This document shows positions 15,448 to 29,967 of a stretch of DNA of 38,422 nt, in pieces. Positions within the stretch are counted from its first letter, which is position 1, and every line of letters starts with the position of its first letter. Both the position numbers and the translations under genes were made by a program. The DNA lies in the NCBI GenBank assembly GCA_017472605.1, contig JAFUPV010000059.1, positions 1-38,422 on the forward strand, in the 5' to 3' direction. A model generated the notes under the pieces. The model worked only from the letters and a program-made list of their open reading frames with translations, had not been told where the DNA came from and did not search any database. This DNA comes from Lachnospiraceae bacterium. Lineage in GTDB: Bacteria > Bacillota > Clostridia > Lachnospirales > Lachnospiraceae.

Positions 15448-16149
15448 TTATTCCACCCGCATCATCCGATACCCGACACCAATATGTGTCTGAATATACT
15501 GCGGAGAATCCGGTTCTCTTTCAATTTTCTTTCTGAGCGTTGCCATAAACACACGAAGAGAAGCCACATCATTATCCCAGCTGCTTCCCCATACCTTTTG
15601 TGTAATATAGGTATGTGTCATTACCTTTCCGATATTCTGCGCCATCAGGCAAAGGAGTTTATATTCGATGGGCGTTAAATGCAGTTCGTCCTCTCCAAGC
15701 CAGGCACAGCCTGCGGCGTAGTCAATTTTCAGTCTGCCGTTGACAAAAACGGCTTCGTTTGCTGACGAACCGTTCTGCATGGCTGCAAGATGACGCTGAG
15801 TAACACGAAGCCGCGCAAGCAGCTCTTCAACCGAAAACGGCTTGGTCAGATAGTCATCGGCACCGCAGTCCAGCGCTTCAATTTTATCCGTCTCCTCGCT
15901 CCTTGCGCTGATCACGATGATCGGCATATTCGACCAGGTCCGGATGCGCCGGATTACCTCCACACCGTCCATGTCCGGCAGTCCCAGATCCAGCAGGACG
16001 ATATCCGGGTTCCGGGAGGATGCCTCCATGATAGCGCCTTCGCCCGTGGGGACAGCACTGTATTTATAGTCATGTGTTTTCAGCGTCGTTGTGATCAGGT
16101 TGCGGATCGCCGCATCGTCTTCAACGACAAGAATCAGGGATTTATTCAT
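15448..16149 (-). CDS. kdpE: KdpE-like response regulator
   Basis: A 233-residue OmpR-class regulator. Receiver domain with ED at 10-11, phosphoacceptor Asp54 in IVLLDLGLPDMDG, and Lys in DDYLTKPF; winged-helix domain with LTPIEYKLL and THIGVGYRM, both typical of KdpE. It overlaps the end of kdpD by 8 nt, so translation is coupled. KdpE proteins normally activate the kdpFABC potassium pump; no such genes are in the window, so its targets here are unknown. Confidence 0.92.
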   Translation of the reverse strand: MNKSLILVVEDDAAIRNLITTTLKTHDYKYSAVPTGEGAIMEASSRNPDIVLLDLGLPDMDGVEVIRRIRTWSNMPIIVISARSEETDKIEALDCGADDYLTKPFSVEELLARLRVTQRHLAAMQNGSSANEAVFVNGRLKIDYAAGCAWLGEDELHLTPIEYKLLCLMAQNIGKVMTHTYITQKVWGSSWDNDVASLRVFMATLRKKIEREPDSPQYIQTHIGVGYRMMRVE

Positions 16150-18127
16150 TGATATTCACCTCACCTGCAGGTAATGTAAACGTAAAGACACAGCCATGAG
16201 GGACATGATCCGTCAGCCTCAGTTCACCGCCATGTGCGTTAATGATCGAACGGCAGAGAGGAAGACCCAGTCCAAGGCTTCGTCTGCTGTCAGCAATTTT
16301 ATTGTCGCCTGTGTAGAACATCTCAAATACACGCGGTTTCATTTCGTCAGGAATTCCTGCCCCGTTGTCGGAAATGCTTACGACGACCATGCCGTCCTGA
16401 TTTTTGGCGGCAATTCTGATATCAGAACCGGCAGGCGCATATTTGATCGCGTTATCAACAATATTGATGATAACCTGCATAATCAGTCTTGCATCAATCC
16501 GCGCAAGCAGCAGTTCGTCACCATATTCTACCGTTATGTTGTGTGCAGCGCCTTTTCGGCTGATGTGCTTCAGCGCTTCTTCAATCACCTCATCCATCAG
16601 CTGAACGGACATGTTAAAATTCATTCTTCCTTCTTCGATCCGCGTAACAGAAAGAAGGTTTTCCACAAGACTGATCAGCCACTGGGAATCGTCGGAAATA
16701 TCCGTAAACACCTGCATTCTCGTTTCGTCATCCATCATCTTCCAATTGACCAGAAGATTGCTGGCGTTTCCCGAAATCGAGGTCAGCGGTGTGCGAAGGT
16801 CATGGGAAATCGCGCGCAGCAGATTCGCTCTGAGCTGCTCATTTTTCGCCAGAACTGCCGCCTGCTCTTTCTCCTTTGCATTTCGGCTGTTCTGAATGGC
16901 AAGGGCACATTCGCCAAGTATGGAGAGCAGAAAGCTGTTTTCAAACGCGTCCACCGGCTTTCCGTTGATGTGGACGCCGATTACCCCGTAAACCTTCCTG
17001 TTGATCCGGATTGACAAATACAGAAACTTTGTATGATTCATCGTATCCGTAGTCGCCCCTGCGCGATGTCTGTTCTGATATGCCCACGCTGCCGCTTCCC
17101 GTTCTTCCCTGGAAAAAAACAATGTTGTGTCCGTCTCCGGAAGCACAGTTACCGGATATCCTTCCGAAAGCTTCCCGTCCAGTTCCGGGTACACAGCAAT
17201 ATCCCGTCTCAGCAGTTTCATCAGCTGAACTGCCGTGATATGGATCATTTCTTTTTCATTCTGCGCCTTCTGCAGCAGCTGGCTGGTATCAAACAGAATT
17301 TTTGTGCGGTATGCGGACCGTGAGGATTGTCTTGCATGATCCCCCAGCCGGTTGGCCAGGGTCGCTGTCACAACCGAAACGACAAGCATGATTGCCATCG
17401 TTACCGGATATCCCTCTTCATAGGCAAGAAAAGACATTCCCGATACCTGGAAAAAGAAACGAAACAGAATCACACAGCCGAGTGAACTGATTATGCCGCA
17501 AATCCTGCTTCTGGTAAACAAAGAAATCAGCAGCACGCCAAGATAGTAAACGGTAATAATATTTACTTCCGTAAATCCGACATCATAGAACAGGATTCCC
17601 AATACAGTCACAGCAGAAAGAATATACAGTGTGATCAGCAGATCCCAGACGGAAGGAATCACATTTCTGGCAGAGCCCGTCTTCTCCCTGTACCTGGTAT
17701 CCGCCAGGCTGTCCGGGATGATATGAATATCGATATTGGGAGCAATCTCTGTCAGCTTCTCCGTGAGCGTCGGCTTTCTCCAAAAATGACGGCGCTTCAT
17801 TCCGCTTCTTCCGATCACGATTTTTGTCACGCCTGAAATCCGTGCAAACTCGGCAATCTGAAACGAAACATCATCTCCGTAAACAGTCGTAACGGCAGCG
17901 CCGAAGGACTCCGCAAGGCGAACATGGCATTCCAGTCTCCTCTTATCCGTTTCGTCCATTTTTTCCGAATCGGGCGTCTGAACATACAGCGCAGTAAAAC
18001 TGCCGCCGAACGCTTTTGCCATTTTTGCACCGGTATTGACGATTTTCGCATTGGATGGGGAAGCCGACAGACACACAAGAATATGCTCCTCCTCTGCCGG
18101 CGAACCAAACGTTTTCTTTTGATCCAT
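16142..18127 (-). CDS. kdpD: KdpD-like sensor kinase lacking the N-terminal KdpD domain, with UspA domain
   Basis: About 661 residues, against roughly 890 for E. coli KdpD. The classical N-terminal KdpD domain with its Walker motif is absent; the protein begins with a universal stress (UspA) domain (about 14-140). That domain holds SAS (21-23), exactly 20 residues, then FTALY (44-48), the SXS-X20-FTAXY signature tied to c-di-AMP binding in S. aureus KdpD. Four membrane segments follow (about 163-258, DUF4118 type), a GAF-like region (about 275-415), HisKA with His442 in SHDLRTPLTS, and HATPase_c (DNGAGIP, SLGLGLPL). Start taken as ATG 18127; a GTG at 18136 is possible. It begins about 97 nt after atpC with no terminator between. 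Confidence 0.9.
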   Translation of the reverse strand: MDQKKTFGSPAEEEHILVCLSASPSNAKIVNTGAKMAKAFGGSFTALYVQTPDSEKMDETDKRRLECHVRLAESFGAAVTTVYGDDVSFQIAEFARISGVTKIVIGRSGMKRRHFWRKPTLTEKLTEIAPNIDIHIIPDSLADTRYREKTGSARNVIPSVWDLLITLYILSAVTVLGILFYDVGFTEVNIITVYYLGVLLISLFTRSRICGIISSLGCVILFRFFFQVSGMSFLAYEEGYPVTMAIMLVVSVVTATLANRLGDHARQSSRSAYRTKILFDTSQLLQKAQNEKEMIHITAVQLMKLLRRDIAVYPELDGKLSEGYPVTVLPETDTTLFFSREEREAAAWAYQNRHRAGATTDTMNHTKFLYLSIRINRKVYGVIGVHINGKPVDAFENSFLLSILGECALAIQNSRNAKEKEQAAVLAKNEQLRANLLRAISHDLRTPLTSISGNASNLLVNWKMMDDETRMQVFTDISDDSQWLISLVENLLSVTRIEEGRMNFNMSVQLMDEVIEEALKHISRKGAAHNITVEYGDELLLARIDARLIMQVIINIVDNAIKYAPAGSDIRIAAKNQDGMVVVSISDNGAGIPDEMKPRVFEMFYTGDNKIADSRRSLGLGLPLCRSIINAHGGELRLTDHVPHGCVFTFTLPAGEVNINE

Positions 18128-18223
18128 CTTTCTCACCGCCTTACGATGTTTTGCTTCATTGTATCACAAAAAAATGAAAATTTCTACCGGTATCCCCAAT
18201 TCCAGTCCCTGTTCTATTCCCTG

Positions 18224-20967
<2,744 letters not shown>

Positions 20968-20984: not shown

Positions 20985-22763
20985 TCATTTACGGTTTTCC
21001 AGAAACCGCTTTGCTGTATCAATAATCTCATTCTTCAACTCATCGGAATAGGTCTTTCCGTGTTCAATCTTATGACAGACGGCGCTCTTATACTGTTCAA
21101 AATACGTAAGAAGCTCCTGCTGTACCAGCCGGATTTCTTTCTGCGGCACATCCACAAACAGTCTCGCCTGTGCACAGATCAGCGTAATTACCTGTCGGTG
21201 CAGGCTCATCGGTGCGTTTTTCTGCTGCCGCAGAAGCTGCATCAGTCCGGCGCCGTACTTAAGCTGCCGCGCCGTACCTGCGTCCAGGTCGCCTCCAAAC
21301 TGCGAAAATGCCTGCATTTCCCGATACTGCGCCAGGTCAAGCCGAACGGTTCCCACCGATTTTCTCATCACATTGGTCTGAGCTGCTCCTCCGACACGTG
21401 ACACAGACAATCCCACATTGACAGCCGGCCGCTGTCCTGCAAAGAACAGTTCGCTTTCCAGAAAGATCTGGCCGTCCGTTATGGAAATAATGTTTGTCGG
21501 TATGTAAGCCGAAACATCTCCCGCCTGTGTTTCCACAATGGGAAGAGCTGTCATGCTGCCGCCGCTCATCGTGTCCGACAACTGTGCCGAACGCTCCAGA
21601 AGCCTTGCATGCAGATAAAACACGTCACCGGGATATGCTTCACGTCCTGGTGACCGCTCCAGCAGCAGGCTGAGCGTGCGGTATGCAACGGCATGTTTGG
21701 AAAGGTCATCGTAAACAATCAGAACATCTCTTCCATGATACATAAAGTATTCGGCAACCGCGCAGCCTGCATATGGCGCAATATACTGCAGAGAAGCGGC
21801 ATCGCTCGCCGGAGAGGACACAACAACCGTGTAGTCCATCGCATCATGCTTCTTCAGTGTGGAAACAACCTTTGCAATGGAGGACGCTTTCTGTCCGATT
21901 GCGACATATACGCAGACGACATCCTTATTCTTCTGATTGATGATGGTATCCACTGCAAGCGTTGTCTTTCCTGTCTGCCGGTCACCGATGATCAGTTCAC
22001 GCTGCCCCCGTCCAATGGGAAACATCGCGTCAATGGCAAGAATACCGGTTTCCATCGGTCTGCCTACCGATTTCCGCTCGATAATACCGGGAGCCGGCCG
22101 TTCAATCGGATAATATTCTTTGGCTCCAATCTCTCCTCCCCCATCAACCGGCTTACCGAGTGGATCAATGATTCTTCCGAGTATTTTCTTGCTGATTGGA
22201 ATACCGGCTGTTCGCTGTGTTCTTACCACACGGCTGCCTTCATAAATCTCCGAGTCGTCGCCGAAAAGAACGATACCGTTTGTGCCGTCGGCGCGGATAT
22301 CCTGTACCATTCCTTTTACACCGCAGTCAAAAAGAACTATCTCACCGTACTCGACTTCACGCAGACCTTCAATGATTGCAATGCCGTCACCGACAGAAAC
22401 CACAAAACCGACCTGCTGATGTCCCACGTGAAGTTCGAAGTTTTGTATATCCTCACGCAGCAGCGATATAATCTGTGCAGGATCCTGCAGTTTTTGTAAC
22501 GACTGAAATGATTTCCGCAGCTGACGGATTCGCCCAAGCGTACTCCAGTCATAGTTTTCATCACCAACGAAAATGCGGAAGCCGCCAACTACACCAGGAT
22601 CCCTTTTTATTACAAAGTCAATTTCATCCGCCTGATATTCCGCCAGAAAGAACGCGCGCATTTTTTCCAACTGCTGTTCATCGGGCGGTGTCATACACTG
22701 GATTTCAACCGTTAAAACATTTTGCTCCTGCTCTTGCGAACTTTCAAAACTATTTTTTATCAT
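20985..22763 (-). CDS. atpA: F1Fo ATP synthase alpha subunit with an N-terminal delta (OSCP) C-terminal-domain fusion
   Basis: A 592-residue protein, about 85-90 longer than ordinary alpha (500-510). Residues about 97-592 are a standard alpha subunit: Walker A GDRQTGKT at 260-267, IGQKASSIAKV, SGGSMTALPIVETQAGD, and the arginine-finger segment ISVSRVGGAAQT (here LSVSRVGGAAQT). Residues about 16-90 instead match the C-terminal domain of delta: LTVEIQCMTPPDEQQLEKM, then RDPGVVGGFRIFVGD, then STLGRIRQLRKSF, which line up with the end of E. coli AtpH (VTAEVDV..LSEQQLAKI..IDKSVMAGVIIRAGD..GSVRGRLERL). The delta N-terminal helical bundle is absent. The ATG at 22763 has GAGG seven bases upstream and overlaps atpF by 14 nt, so no separate atpH fits. 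A continuous frame argues against a sequencing artefact. Confidence 0.95.
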   Translation of the reverse strand: MIKNSFESSQEQEQNVLTVEIQCMTPPDEQQLEKMRAFFLAEYQADEIDFVIKRDPGVVGGFRIFVGDENYDWSTLGRIRQLRKSFQSLQKLQDPAQIISLLREDIQNFELHVGHQQVGFVVSVGDGIAIIEGLREVEYGEIVLFDCGVKGMVQDIRADGTNGIVLFGDDSEIYEGSRVVRTQRTAGIPISKKILGRIIDPLGKPVDGGGEIGAKEYYPIERPAPGIIERKSVGRPMETGILAIDAMFPIGRGQRELIIGDRQTGKTTLAVDTIINQKNKDVVCVYVAIGQKASSIAKVVSTLKKHDAMDYTVVVSSPASDAASLQYIAPYAGCAVAEYFMYHGRDVLIVYDDLSKHAVAYRTLSLLLERSPGREAYPGDVFYLHARLLERSAQLSDTMSGGSMTALPIVETQAGDVSAYIPTNIISITDGQIFLESELFFAGQRPAVNVGLSVSRVGGAAQTNVMRKSVGTVRLDLAQYREMQAFSQFGGDLDAGTARQLKYGAGLMQLLRQQKNAPMSLHRQVITLICAQARLFVDVPQKEIRLVQQELLTYFEQYKSAVCHKIEHGKTYSDELKNEIIDTAKRFLENRK

Positions 22764-23271
22764 GCTTCGACCTCTCAGCAGTTATCGTATCTTCGGCAAG
22801 CCGGATAAACTCGTCATACAAAGCACTGTTGCGCTCAGGTGTCACCGTATCGCTCAGCAGCTTCTGCGTTGCACAAACCACCAGCTCACCAATCTCGGTC
22901 TGCGCGGATTCAAGAATGTGTTCCTTTCGTTCTTCTGCTTCCTGTTCTGCCGCAAGGAGAATGGCAGCTGCCTTTTCCTGTGCTTCTCTGATGTATTGGG
23001 CGGAAAGATCAGCCCATTCTTTCTCGGCAGCTTTCTTTCGTTCGGCGATTTCCTCATCTGCCCTGCGAAGCCGCTGTTCATACTCGGTTCGCAGTTTTTC
23101 GTTTTCTTCCGCAGACTCCCGATTCCTCTTCTCTTCCCCGGCAAACTGCTCACGGCGCTGCTCCAGAAAACGATTGACCGGTTTATACAGAAGAAACGTC
23201 AGACCGCCGGCAAGAAGAACAAAATTCAGCATATGCAGAAGAATCTGTAAAAAATCAATGTTAAGTGGCAT
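22750..23271 (-). CDS. atpF: F1Fo ATP synthase b subunit
   Basis: A 173-residue peripheral stalk subunit: N-terminal membrane helix (about 8-30, ILLHMLNFVLLAGGLTFLLY), then a long charged coiled coil (about 35-150) and a C-terminal segment expected to touch delta. PVNRFLEQRREQ is the usual post-membrane motif. The next gene is atpA, overlapping by 14 nt, where most operons have atpH. In this organism the b C-terminus may contact the delta-like segment fused to alpha. Confidence 0.93.
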   Translation of the reverse strand: MPLNIDFLQILLHMLNFVLLAGGLTFLLYKPVNRFLEQRREQFAGEEKRNRESAEENEKLRTEYEQRLRRADEEIAERKKAAEKEWADLSAQYIREAQEKAAAILLAAEQEAEERKEHILESAQTEIGELVVCATQKLLSDTVTPERNSALYDEFIRLAEDTITAERSKHDKK

Positions 23272-23283
23272 ATTCGTTCCCTC

Positions 23284-23658
23284 TTACAAAACAAAAATGA
23301 TAAGAATTGCAACAATCAGCGCATAGATAATTGCTGTCTCAATAAAGACAATACCAAGCATCATCGCAGAGTTTATTTTGGATGCCATTTCCGGCTGGCG
23401 TGCCATGCTTTCTGTGCTTTTCGAAATCGCCATTGCCATACCAATCGCACCTGCCGCTCCGACAACCGCTACAACAATTGCAGCCGCAATTGCTTTCGTC
23501 GAGAGAACATCGTTCCCGTTTGCCTCGGTATCCTGCACAGCAGCCACCGCCTGATCCGTCGAAGCAGGCTCTGCCGCTGCTGCGGAAACACTGCCAACCA
23601 TCGTCGCAGTCATTGTAAGCATCAGAATCATCATTAGGACAGTTATCATTTTTTTCAT
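23284..23658 (-). CDS. atpE: F1Fo ATP synthase c subunit with N-terminal presequence
   Basis: A 124-residue proteolipid, against 70-90 for most c subunits. Residues 1-25 look like a signal peptide (MKKMITVLMMILMLTMTATM, then SVSA, a plausible cleavage site), followed by an Ala/Glu-rich linker to about 50. The c hairpin is 53-124: helix 1, the polar loop ARQPE (86-90), and helix 2 with the ion-binding Glu107 in FIETAIIYAL. The helix-1 Gln that forms part of the sodium site in Ilyobacter-type c rings aligns with Met74, so the coordination set is incomplete and a proton ring is somewhat favoured, although Thr108 next to the Glu is compatible with sodium. Confidence 0.93.
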   Translation of the reverse strand: MKKMITVLMMILMLTMTATMVGSVSAAAAEPASTDQAVAAVQDTEANGNDVLSTKAIAAAIVVAVVGAAGAIGMAMAISKSTESMARQPEMASKINSAMMLGIVFIETAIIYALIVAILIIFVL

Positions 23659-23664
23659 ATCGGT

Positions 23665-24519
23665 TTACCTCTTTGCTTTCTTATTTTTTCTTTTTCGTGG
23701 TTTCGGCTCAACAGCTTCTCCATAGAAGATTGATACCAGTGTTGTAAGCACATAGGTCTGTACGATGGCATGCAGAAGTGTAAAAAGAACACCGACAATA
23801 ACAGGCAGTACAAAACTAAGGCTGACATAATAATAGACGAGCTCTGTTACCAGTAAACCGCTGATCAGGGCACCGAACAGACGGAAGCTCATTGAGATTG
23901 GAAGCGAAAAATCCTTCAACACGCCGAGCGCCCCCCGAAAACCGCCGCAGATGATACCCGCGCCAAGAATCAAGGCATATGACAGAACACCAAGGGCGAT
24001 TGCGGCATTGATATCCGATACCGGTGCCGGAAGGGACATGGAAACACCGGAGGCGGTGGGCCATTGAATTCCAAAAAGCTCGAACAGCGTTCCAAAGAAC
24101 AGATAAACACCGGCACTGAATATGTACGCTCCCACCAAACGGGGACGATGGTGACTGTTGCTGTTCGCCATATCCGAGAAAAATTCCACCAGCTTCTCAA
24201 TCATGCACTGGAATTTACCTGGTACCGTTTGAAATCCCGGAATTGTGAATATCCGGATCAGTGCTGCTGCCGTCAACAAGATTGCCGTAACCATGTAAGC
24301 GGAAATCAGTCCCGGATTCACCTCCAGCCCGAACAGATCCATTTTATTCTGCTCATGCAGCACACCATCCCGCATGACCTCCCTGATGTTTTCATGCCTG
24401 CTTCCGGGCGGCCATAAAAGCAGGATTCCAACCACGATTCCTGCAAGGACGGCAAGCCAAATTGCAAGAAAGATAAGCTTTTTATTCCTGCGTTTTTTGT
24501 TCATTGCATTTCTTTCCAT
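23665..24519 (-). CDS. atpB: F1Fo ATP synthase a subunit
   Basis: A 284-residue membrane subunit that carries the ion half-channels. The essential Arg is R213 in ISMSFRLFGALISG, and the last helix has VQTYVLTTLVSIFYGEA. The N-terminus (KKRRNKK) and C-terminus (PRKRKNKKAKR) are strongly basic. First gene of the atp operon, 6 nt before atpE; no atpI or atpZ precedes it. The ATG at 24519 has AGGA upstream; an ATG at 24504 is an alternative. Confidence 0.93.
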   Translation of the reverse strand: MERNAMNKKRRNKKLIFLAIWLAVLAGIVVGILLLWPPGSRHENIREVMRDGVLHEQNKMDLFGLEVNPGLISAYMVTAILLTAAALIRIFTIPGFQTVPGKFQCMIEKLVEFFSDMANSNSHHRPRLVGAYIFSAGVYLFFGTLFELFGIQWPTASGVSMSLPAPVSDINAAIALGVLSYALILGAGIICGGFRGALGVLKDFSLPISMSFRLFGALISGLLVTELVYYYVSLSFVLPVIVGVLFTLLHAIVQTYVLTTLVSIFYGEAVEPKPRKRKNKKAKR

Positions 24520-24864: not shown

Positions 24865-25959
24865 TTACTCAGCAGCTGCGGTCTCCATCTCAGCCATCAT
24901 CATGCTGTAGTAGATGATCACACCGTTCTTAACGATGTCTCTCAGAGGAGTTGCTTCCGGAGCAGTGATCTCGGAAAACTCACCATCCATGGTGGAAACG
25001 AAGCTTACCATTACATTCACGGTCTGCTCAGCCTCGGTAACGTTTACATCTGCAACAACTACCATTTCGGTCTCGGTCTGATCCACGGTGATGGTTCCCT
25101 CAACATCAATGGTCTCAAGAGCAGCTGCTACGGTCTCAGTCATGGAAGCAGACTCAACGCCCTCAACCTCGGTGTCTACACTCAGATCTGCGCTTGCCAT
25201 TGCCTCTTCCATTACCATGTCAACCATCATGTTGATCATCTCAACATTGGCATCAACGGTAGAAGTAGTGTCAACCTCTGCCATACCTTCAGCAGCTGCA
25301 AGGATGTAATCAGCAAATACGGTCTTCACATCAATGGTGCTCTCAGAATCAGTTGCCATCAGACCGGACAGCTCCTCACCATAGGTCTCATATACAGCCT
25401 CAAATGCAGTGACTGCTGCAAGCAGGGAATCATCGTTGAAAGAAACAACTGCACCGGTCTCGGTCTCGGTCATCTCAAAGCCGGATACACACTCCATCAG
25501 AGCAGCAGCAAGCTCCTCGCTTACAACCGGCTCCTCAGCGGCAGCAGCCTCGATCTCAAGCTTCGGGATTACAACGAACGGCTGATCAATACCAACCATT
25601 GTGGTCAGAGATACAAGAGAAGCGTCTCCTGTCATGTTCTGGTACAGACCAAGAACTGCATCAATGTTCAGGTAGCAGTCTCCTGCAACAACTTTTACCA
25701 GATCCGCAAGTTCAAGAGTCATCGGCTCCTCGGTTCCAAGCATAGACGGCGGAAGTGTTGCGTAAGCAGACAGAGAAGTATCTCCGCTCTCGCTGTTCAG
25801 TGCAACAAGACCAGCCTCCATGGTCTCTCCGTCAGCAGTAATTGCAATTGTGATCACATCACTGGAGCTGGCAACAGCAGCCTCTTCTGCCATTACAACG
25901 GTAGATACGGTTCCTGCAAGCAGCGCAGCGCTCAGAGAAGCAGCAACAAACTTTTTCAT
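24865..25959 (-). CDS. Secreted, highly acidic protein of unknown function
   Basis: A 364-residue protein. A clear signal peptide (MKKFVAASLSAALLAGTVST, then VVMAEE with probable cleavage after the Ala) is followed by a mature part dominated by Ala, Glu, Val, Thr, Ser and Met with almost no Lys or Arg, so the pI is very low. No lipobox Cys, membrane anchor, sortase signal or enzymatic motif is seen. Repeated short phrases such as VEGTITVDQTETEM and MMVDMVMEEAM suggest beta strands mixed with helices, somewhat like secreted cell-surface proteins. AAGGAGG lies eight bases before the ATG at 25959; the promoter is near consensus, so expression is probably high. I do not recognise the family. Confidence 0.85.
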   Translation of the reverse strand: MKKFVAASLSAALLAGTVSTVVMAEEAAVASSSDVITIAITADGETMEAGLVALNSESGDTSLSAYATLPPSMLGTEEPMTLELADLVKVVAGDCYLNIDAVLGLYQNMTGDASLVSLTTMVGIDQPFVVIPKLEIEAAAAEEPVVSEELAAALMECVSGFEMTETETGAVVSFNDDSLLAAVTAFEAVYETYGEELSGLMATDSESTIDVKTVFADYILAAAEGMAEVDTTSTVDANVEMINMMVDMVMEEAMASADLSVDTEVEGVESASMTETVAAALETIDVEGTITVDQTETEMVVVADVNVTEAEQTVNVMVSFVSTMDGEFSEITAPEATPLRDIVKNGVIIYYSMMMAEMETAAAE

Positions 25960-26004
25960 AATTCTATCCTCCTTCAATTGTCTTGTCAGTTAACAAGTGA
26001 GCCC

Positions 26005-28215: not shown

Positions 28216-29967
28216 TTAAAAACTGCGGAAACGGTAGTACCGCTCCTGAGCGATCTCCTCCCGTTCTTTTCCGTCGTAAGAACATAAAAAGTCTTTGATT
28301 TCCTTTTTCATATATGCGGAAATCCGGTCTACAGTCTCCGGTGAAGCCTTTCCGAATTCCGGGATGATCTTGTCGATCACGCGCAGACGCTCCAGATCCT
28401 GGGCAGTCAGTTTCATTTCCTCCGCCGCTTCCTCTGCCCGGTCATTTGTCTTCCACACGATGGATGAATATCCTTCTGGCGAAAGAATGGCATAGGTGGA
28501 ATTTTCCAGCATCCATACCTTATTTCCCATACCGGTCGCCAGCGCACCGCCGCTGCCGCCTTCTCCAATGAAAATGCAGAGTACCGGAACGCTTAATCCG
28601 GACATTTCCATGATGCTTCTTGCGATAGCCTCACCCTGACCGCGCTCCTCCGCATCTACACCGCAGAATGCGCCGGGTGTATTGATAAAGCTGATGATCG
28701 GGCGGTTAAACTTCTCCGCCTGCTTCATCAGACGCACCGCTTTCCGGTATCCATCCGGCATCGGCATGCCAAAGTTATGTTCCATACGCTCCTGCATCGT
28801 GGTTCCCTTCTCTTCTCCGAGAATGGTTACCGGCTGACCGTCCAGAAACGCGATTCCGCCAAAGAGCGCCTTATCATCCCCATACAGTCTGTCACCGTGG
28901 GCTTCGACAAAAATATCGAAGATGCGTTTGATGTAATCCATGGAAGAGGGACGTGTGCTGCTTCTGCACTCACGTACCTTCTGCCACGGAGTCATTTCCG
29001 ACACCTTATTCTCTGTACCGTCCGCAAACGCACGCGAATCCGTCTGCATTCCTATTGCTGCCGTTTCCGGCTGTACAGCCGCCGTTTCTGCGCTGCTTCC
29101 CTCTTTCTTCTCAGACAAAAAGCCTGCGTAGGACGCTTCACTGCGATGGGAACGGATCAGGAAATGCATGGTCTTTTTCAGATTTTTACGCTCAACAATT
29201 CCATCGATCAGTCCGTGTTCCAGAAGAAATTCCGCAGTCTGAAAGCCCTCCGGCAGTGTCTGACCAATGGTCTGACGAATGACACGGGGACCTGCAAATC
29301 CAATCAGCGCCCCAGGCTCTGCCATGATCACGTCAGCCAGTGTCGCGAAGCTTGCCGTTACACCGCCCATGGTCGGGTCGGTCAGAATCGAGCAGTAAAA
29401 CAGTCCCGCATCCAGATGACGCTTGATTGCTGCTGCCGTCTTTCCCATCTGCATCAGAGAAATGATTCCCTCCTGCATTCTTGCGCCGCCGGAGCAGCAG
29501 AAAATGAACACGGGAAGACGCAGTCTGGTTGCCTTCTCAAACGCTCTTGTAATCCGCTCGCCAACGGCATATCCCATGCTTCCCATCAGAAAACGGGCAT
29601 CGCAGACACCGATTACAGCCCGGTCTCCAAAGATCTTACCTTCACCAACCGTTACAGCCTCCGACAGATTTGTCTTCTCACGGTTTGCCTGCAGCTTTTC
29701 CGGATACTCCGGGTTCTCCAGCGGATTGCTGTCCGGAATCTGCTCAAACCAGGGAGTAAAAGTCCGCGGATCAGTAACCATGTGAATCCGGTTCACCGTA
29801 TTGACACGGAAATATCCGCCGCATTTGGGGCAGATGTACTTTTTCTTAACCGCTTCTTCACGGTCAACCATTTCCTTACACTTCTGACACTGTATCAAAA
29901 CCGGTTTCTGCTGTGTTTCTTCTGTAACCGGAGCGGCTTTTTTACCAAATAAACCAAATAAAGCCAT
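28216..29967 (-). CDS. accDA: Acetyl-CoA carboxylase carboxyltransferase, fused beta (AccD) and alpha (AccA) subunits
   Basis: A 583-residue fusion. The N-terminal part (about 1-285) is AccD with the zinc ribbon cysteines C27, C30, C46 and C49 (CQKC...CPKC) and the crotonase-like region with CCSGGARMQEG. A linker of about 40 residues follows (SSAETAAVQPETAAIG), then AccA (about 325-583) with FVEAHGDRLYGDD, INTPGAFCGVDAEERGQGEA and GEGGSGGALA. It moves the carboxyl group from biotin to acetyl-CoA. Fused AccDA is known in some Clostridia. The matching accB (biotin carrier) and accC (biotin carboxylase) genes are not in this operon. AAGGAGG precedes the ATG. Confidence 0.95.
   Translation of the reverse strand: MALFGLFGKKAAPVTEETQQKPVLIQCQKCKEMVDREEAVKKKYICPKCGGYFRVNTVNRIHMVTDPRTFTPWFEQIPDSNPLENPEYPEKLQANREKTNLSEAVTVGEGKIFGDRAVIGVCDARFLMGSMGYAVGERITRAFEKATRLRLPVFIFCCSGGARMQEGIISLMQMGKTAAAIKRHLDAGLFYCSILTDPTMGGVTASFATLADVIMAEPGALIGFAGPRVIRQTIGQTLPEGFQTAEFLLEHGLIDGIVERKNLKKTMHFLIRSHRSEASYAGFLSEKKEGSSAETAAVQPETAAIGMQTDSRAFADGTENKVSEMTPWQKVRECRSSTRPSSMDYIKRIFDIFVEAHGDRLYGDDKALFGGIAFLDGQPVTILGEEKGTTMQERMEHNFGMPMPDGYRKAVRLMKQAEKFNRPIISFINTPGAFCGVDAEERGQGEAIARSIMEMSGLSVPVLCIFIGEGGSGGALATGMGNKVWMLENSTYAILSPEGYSSIVWKTNDRAEEAAEEMKLTAQDLERLRVIDKIIPEFGKASPETVDRISAYMKKEIKDFLCSYDGKEREEIAQERYYRFRSF

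Follow-up and report, generated by a model that had tools for sequence, protein, structure and literature searches.

The window, as we call the whole stretch of 38,422 nucleotides analyzed here, carries an F-ATPase operon in which the C-terminal domain (CTD) of the delta subunit is fused to the alpha subunit. Judged by its sequence, it is close to certain that this fused, intact and constrained subunit is real. The likeliest reading, in which we have moderate confidence, is that the operon encodes a natural multi-stalk, probably H+-coupled second F1Fo-ATPase, with each alpha bearing its own b-docking domain; we prefer it because of the close analogy with an engineered twin made in Bacillus PS3.

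The fused ORF (20985..22763, minus strand) encodes 592 aa; its ATG is at 22763, with the Shine–Dalgarno-like GAGAGG 5′ of it, and its stop codon ends at 20985. The Pfam model PF00213 (OSCP) matched residues 3-85 (E 3.3e-9) with its positions 89-171 of 172; the score of 37.5 bits was above the gathering cut-off of 22.3. Our own CTD profile (85.5 bits) placed the delta domain at residues 16-93 (22485..22718, minus strand), while our own profile of the delta N-terminal domain (NTD) had no match in the 592-aa fusion. Of the two domains expected of a delta/OSCP subunit only the CTD half was matched; by this measure the delta part is half a delta and no delta subunit. NCBIfam delta models gave at best E 2.9e-8 and 33.9 bits on residues 1-100; since only half of delta is there, scores below the cut-offs set for the whole protein were to be expected. 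The junction with the alpha N-terminal helix occupies residues 94-111 (22431..22484, minus strand). Alpha proper, residues 96-588 (21000..22478, minus strand), was matched by TIGR00962 with E 3.1e-214 and 712.3 bits against a whole-protein cut-off of 484.45; GDRQTGKT and SVSRVGGAAQ could both be read in it, and we take them to be the catalytic motifs, in place. The initial annotation had seen a likeness to the CTD of AtpH at residues 16-90, had placed the start of alpha proper near residue 97 and had suggested a PF00213 search of the N-terminal part; its limits were correct, the search gave the significant match above, and with PF00213 and TIGR00962 matching within one ORF the fusion that it proposed stands.

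The best match in PDB to residues 1-134 was 9jc1_I, an engineered delta-alpha chain (E 4.1e-9), in an alignment that covers residues 29-134 and passes through the delta/alpha junction; from the chain name we infer that 9jc1 is the entry of Ueno et al. 2025. The fusion is beyond chance: the domain and the junction recur in many genomes, and the PDB match crosses the junction. Compared with seven relatives (L052-L058), the delta part had pN of 0.095-0.229 and pS of 0.745-0.908, the alpha core had pN of 0.052-0.147, and the first 15 residues were far freer (pN 0.249-0.465), pN/pS ratios being rough as silent sites are close to saturation. By these values the delta part is under constraint, though a weaker one than alpha, and a pseudogene reading of the ORF was rejected.

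The operon, on the minus strand, has the order a (23665..24519, 284 aa, PF00119), c (23284..23658, 124 aa, PF00137 at residues 57-120), b (22750..23271, 173 aa, PF00430), deltaCTD-alpha, gamma (20047..20967, 306 aa, PF00231), beta (18621..20060, 479 aa, PF00006 and PF02874, with GGAGVGKT present) and epsilon (18224..18655, PF02823, listed from a TTG, with an ATG five codons further in). There is no separate delta in the operon; the 14-nt overlap between b and the fused gene leaves no space for one between them, and b had no PF00213 match up to E 10, so no delta domain is attached to it. By reading, SFRLFGA was found in a and the E of a VFIETAI stretch in c. At the '32' position c has M, followed by E-T-A (register set by eye on (A/G)RQPE), and this ion site looks to be of the H+ type. 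The c subunit also has an N-terminal extension of ∼50 residues, signal-peptide-like by eye; similar extensions were seen in L034, L043, L044, L052, L058, L070, L079 and L097.

Other genes of the window deserve a mention of their own. Upstream of the operon, 24865-25977 encodes a protein of 370 aa whose start, by eye, is signal-like; Pfam gave no match to it up to E 10. Downstream, at 15448-18136, there are a sensor kinase (Usp, DUF4118, HisKA, HATPase_c) and a response regulator, a KdpDE-like pair. At 28216-29967, beside a FabH-type gene, AccD and AccA are joined in one 583-aa protein (TIGR00515 at residues 10-277 and TIGR00513 at residues 318-582, both above cut-off).

Could plain alpha still be made from a fused gene? 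In each of the clade's 12 separate alphas the start codon lies 35 residues ahead of GDGI and has Shine–Dalgarno (SD) pairing of -7.1 kcal/mol or better. Past the delta domain, the window's junction has no in-frame ATG, GTG or TTG until the GTG at codon 113, use of which would remove the N-terminal helix of alpha. In a scan that left out the 15 residues next to GDGI, the junctions of 47 of 83 fused genes lacked a start codon (28 of 56 CTD-only genes and 19 of 27 with whole delta), and a junction start with SD pairing of -6 or better was present in five of the 83, as compared with 12% of random coding places. Since the window has no junction start and few junctions elsewhere have one with SD pairing, plain alpha is unlikely to be made, so that an alpha3beta3 head should carry three delta CTDs. 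On these grounds each F1 should have three CTDs and no NTD; three delta-like domains per F1 were also what the initial annotation had expected.

We also considered whether b or a nearby ORF conceals a delta NTD, and rejected this on the NTD profile, the gaps and the lengths of b. Among 59 rows of CTD-only genes (duplicates included) the gap between b and the fused gene was from -167 to +28 nt, with median -4, and b abuts the fused gene in G088 also. Median b length was 164 residues in CTD-only rows, 162 in whole-delta rows and 166 in unfused rows. An odd PF00213 match in G088 (22-170) was read as running into the tail of b in the same frame. The b C-terminus had the form LY..F[IL] in 17 of 20 rows among those listed, which favors the multi-stalk reading. 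Against that reading, mean entropy of b residues 141-165 was 2.07 in CTD-only, 1.73 in whole-delta and 1.33 in unfused rows, and the remainder of b was likewise more variable in CTD-only rows.

In ordinary enzymes the N-terminal helix of alpha meets the NTD of delta. This helix was less conserved in CTD-only genes than in genes with NTD kept in all four bins of core identity (0.46 vs 0.62, 0.62 vs 0.69, 0.67 vs 0.79 and 0.79 vs 0.84), in a comparison where pairs are non-independent and the groups differ in kinship; this lower conservation may serve as supporting evidence only.

Among 61 genomes, those of the window and of 60 relatives, 32 gave a match, and the region took three forms: alpha with half delta, alpha with whole delta, and alpha and delta separate. 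Among the matches listed for 397 genomes of the family, a partial list from which weaker fused frames may be missing, at least 75 frames span the delta CTD and the head of alpha. At least 74 were confirmed as fusions: 47 CTD-only, 26 whole-delta and 1 b-deltaCTD-alpha; the remaining frame is at a contig edge, its fusion unconfirmed. Classes were called by our own CTD profile (>10 bits) and NTD profile (>30 bits), both built from this clade. The NTD profile scored 67-116 bits in whole-delta fusions, 34-64 bits in three more distant ones, and had no match in CTD-only fusions. Frame length is a poor guide (the 711-aa frame of G339 is CTD-only), and a count by size (28, 45 and 2 partial) was superseded by the count by domains. 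Whole delta fused to alpha was observed in L035, L037, L039, L041, L093, L098, L106 and others.

The best 80 of 569 loci in a GTDB genome scan, seeded with fused rows and thus giving no frequencies, mostly bear the titles of Lachnospiraceae or Clostridia MAGs from gut or rumen; the whole-delta form is carried by Lachnospiraceae A4, Eubacterium sp. MSJ-21 and Lachnospiraceae GAM79. Fused frames were also present in further families of the class (391 class genomes): from 16 stretches fetched outside the family, 15 were fused, in 12 families (14 CTD-only and 1 whole-delta, L157), and L167 was not. A survey of Clostridia had been suggested in the initial annotation; fusions proved frequent in the family and occur in further families of the class. 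Outside the class (398 phylum genomes), CTD-only fusions were found in five families; of 15 stretches fetched, 13 were fused (one partial), and L185 and L186 were not.

In the tree, 12 of the 13 fusions from outside the class formed one group (support 98) near ordinary alphas. These 13 (L172-L184, from the five families outside the class), and also L152 and L153, which come from within the class but from different families, are CTD-only fusions on alphas near the ordinary type. Joining the set outside the class with the window-type clade as one group was rejected (p-AU 0.010), as was a single clade of all CTD-type rows (p-AU 5e-58); L152 and L153, each tested singly, could belong with the set outside the class (p-AU 0.135 and 0.218), and no origin of their own was supported for either. 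The trees were quick ones, and the groups for AU tests were named after the trees had been seen. With this in mind, the sequences support at least two origins of the fusion, and no more than two. Within the window-type clade, where whole-delta and unfused sisters of the window's alpha are present, a single clade of all NTD-less rows was rejected (p 0.00024); therefore, the NTD was lost, or half-delta fusions were formed, more than once. The quick tree had 16 changes among the three forms, many of them on weak branches. The tree with the set outside the class included 21 of 93 window-type rows and left out the partial L183; rows dropped were duplicates L067, L095, L100, L127 and L137, the partial L092 and cores <420 aa, while L069, L113, L109 and L064 were additionally left out of the comparison of helix conservation.

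The triple fusion, known from one genome (the single genome covered by a search of its genus), is L169:4156-6489 (G094:C33), a single 778-residue chain of b, delta CTD and alpha. PF00430 matched residues 9-137 and PF00213 residues 131-249 (profile positions 54-171), followed by the alpha domains; the PF00213 match, by its limits, runs into the tail of b, and the NTD profile found nothing in the chain. Its genome has no further match for b (E up to 1e-5) or for delta. Plain alpha could still arise from an ATG within the chain, at codon 276 (SD pairing -7.7). If L169 is real and unprocessed, there would be three membrane-anchored b chains per F1, forcing three stator anchors.

How would an enzyme with such subunits work? 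Under the multi-stalk reading, each alpha would bear a delta CTD as a docking domain for b, while the delta NTD, normally single on the three-fold axis, is absent; the alpha3beta3 head would then offer three equivalent docking sites. It could thus assemble with two or even three b2 stalks and an a subunit for each, which would multiply the number of H+ per ATP. In synthesis mode such an enzyme could work at low proton-motive force (pmf); in hydrolysis mode it could act as a low-pressure, high-volume proton pump. Ueno et al. 2025 made such an enzyme from Bacillus PS3, deleting the delta NTD and fusing the CTD to alpha: as described there, as many as three b2 stalks and three copies of a can be present, with an H+/ATP ratio of 5.8 versus 3.0, and an equilibrium pmf of 68 versus 133 mV at Q = 2.5, and the authors attribute the one-stalk limit to the delta NTD (PMC12229609). 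The suggestion of the initial annotation that only one of the three domains could meet the b dimer is, in the light of these three stalks, probably wrong.

Fusion could also replace the NTD as an anchor in an enzyme with a single stalk, one CTD binding b2 and a, and two being idle or capping the head; we regard this as possible, though decidedly the less probable reading. The sequence would show identical signs if there were a single stalk and two idle CTDs, and the tether alone would account for the loss of the NTD. The whole-delta fusions (26 of 74), with three NTDs expected per F1, do not fit well with the simple symmetry story and suggest that fusion need not increase the number of stalks. 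Three-stalk particles were rare in the engineered enzyme, for which the authors blame loss during grid preparation; on the other hand, compared with a control sharing its epsilon truncation, its uptake of a is ∼2.2-fold and that of b 1.8-fold (PMC12229609). L169 also speaks against a single stalk, as it joins b to deltaCTD-alpha and supplies the only b and delta matches of its genome.

A further alternative involves the other F-ATPase of the same genome. A PF00213 search of this genome gave one other delta above cut-off, full length, on contig C52 (L050), adjoining an ordinary alpha and the remainder of an F-ATPase operon; by its gene content the cell has two F-type ATPases. The C52 c subunit has G-E-G and A-E-T-T-G-I-Y at its ion site (register by eye). 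This motif seems to fit the two-carboxylate Na+ site described for c of Fusobacterium nucleatum, with Glu at 32, Glu65 and a hydroxyl at 66 (PMC3692424). Thus, of the cell's two F-ATPases one may be coupled to Na+ and the other to H+. In a search for a link with Rnf, rnfC scored above cut-off in 10 of 16 genomes tested; in the window's genome (G000) there was none over cut-off.

The C52 delta could take part in the window's F1 and set one stalk there; another delta is likewise present in 28 of 43 genomes taken as CTD-only from the length of the fused frame. We consider such mixed assembly improbable. It has in its favor the full-length delta of the window's genome, of a kind present in 27 of the 43 (the 28th, G101, has it in two pieces); however, the alphas of the two operons are on different, well supported branches of the quick tree, and the idea is inapplicable where no other delta was found. 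In 15 of the 43 genomes there was a single gamma gene and no other delta above cut-off; among these 15, three showed an additional weak delta match (13.7-16.5 bits), the fused delta itself scored 21.6 bits in G318, slightly below the Pfam cut-off, and nine are ≥97% complete. The fused gene was the only delta above cut-off in 14 of 20 further genomes (the other six have a full delta too); the 14 include the one-contig genomes G690, G445 and G818, where it was the only delta found. From such genomes, the NTD seems dispensable once the CTD is tethered. In six of the 43 (G206, G318, G186, G006, G210 and G070) the fused delta was under the Pfam cut-off or unseen, and its sequence there is, by this sign, much changed.

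It is very improbable that an internal start or proteolysis gives two products, plain alpha along with some deltaCTD-alpha, which would restore one delta per F1: a few relatives do have an in-frame junction start with SD pairing (the five of 83, and ATG276 of L169), but the window's junction has no start, nor do those of half of the CTD-only fusions and 19 of the 27 whole-delta ones. A decayed or mis-assembled locus without function can practically be dismissed, even though much of the comparison material is metagenome-assembled, as all subunits are intact, the delta part is constrained and many other genomes, some of them in one contig, have the fusion too.

If the multi-stalk reading is true, multi-arm ATP synthases may exist in nature, and many fermenters would have a low-gear enzyme, working as ATP synthase or as proton pump. 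The proton cost of ATP, usually ascribed to the c ring alone, is set by how many stalks and a subunits there are. The laboratory enzyme of 2025 was an exception to the c-ring rule, and natural counterparts were predicted by those who built it (PMC12229609). This prediction becomes directly testable with a broad family whose sisters are unfused, whole-delta or half-delta, and which includes genomes where no other delta was found; one could also trace gain or loss of stalks through evolution.

The window's fusion belongs to a kind already known from Ueno et al. 2025. Like the engineered deltaDeltaN-alpha FoF1 of PS3, it has the delta CTD at the N-terminus of alpha, no NTD and no separate delta; unlike that enzyme, it is natural, has its own operon beside an ordinary F-ATPase, and its epsilon is not cut by design (PMC12229609). 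The sequence features of deltaDeltaN-alpha, an in-frame CTD-alpha with no NTD, no delta in the operon and no start at the junction, were all found in the window. As an N-type ATPase would be, the window's operon is a second F-like operon; N-type identity was rejected, however, as TIGR03324 scored 587.3 against a cut-off of 750.5. The b-delta fusion of mycobacteria and Gordonia is present in one copy per enzyme. There delta is joined to b, while in the window it is joined to alpha; the account of the delta-b protein fusion uses 'chimera fusions' for operon orders, and the N-type gene order given in it differs from that of the window's operon (PMC5709465). For N-type ATPase a high H+/ATP ratio was predicted (PMC12229609, Discussion). 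The closest natural likenesses are the fusions of delta and alpha without NTD named in the Discussion of Ueno et al., Acidaminococcus fermentans and UniProt G4Q3K6 and A0A1I2C5T3, likened here by their description in that paper, where a multi-stalk enzyme of A. fermentans is called highly likely, pending experiment (PMC12229609). The view of the initial annotation that no alpha-delta fusion was described has been overtaken by this engineered enzyme and these database-named natural cases (PMC12229609). Among the open-licence PMC papers listed in our searches, none has a title or displayed abstract that describes the window-type family, whole-delta fusions or b-delta-alpha. What our analysis adds to the known cases are a broad family, more than one loss of the NTD and the triple fusion.
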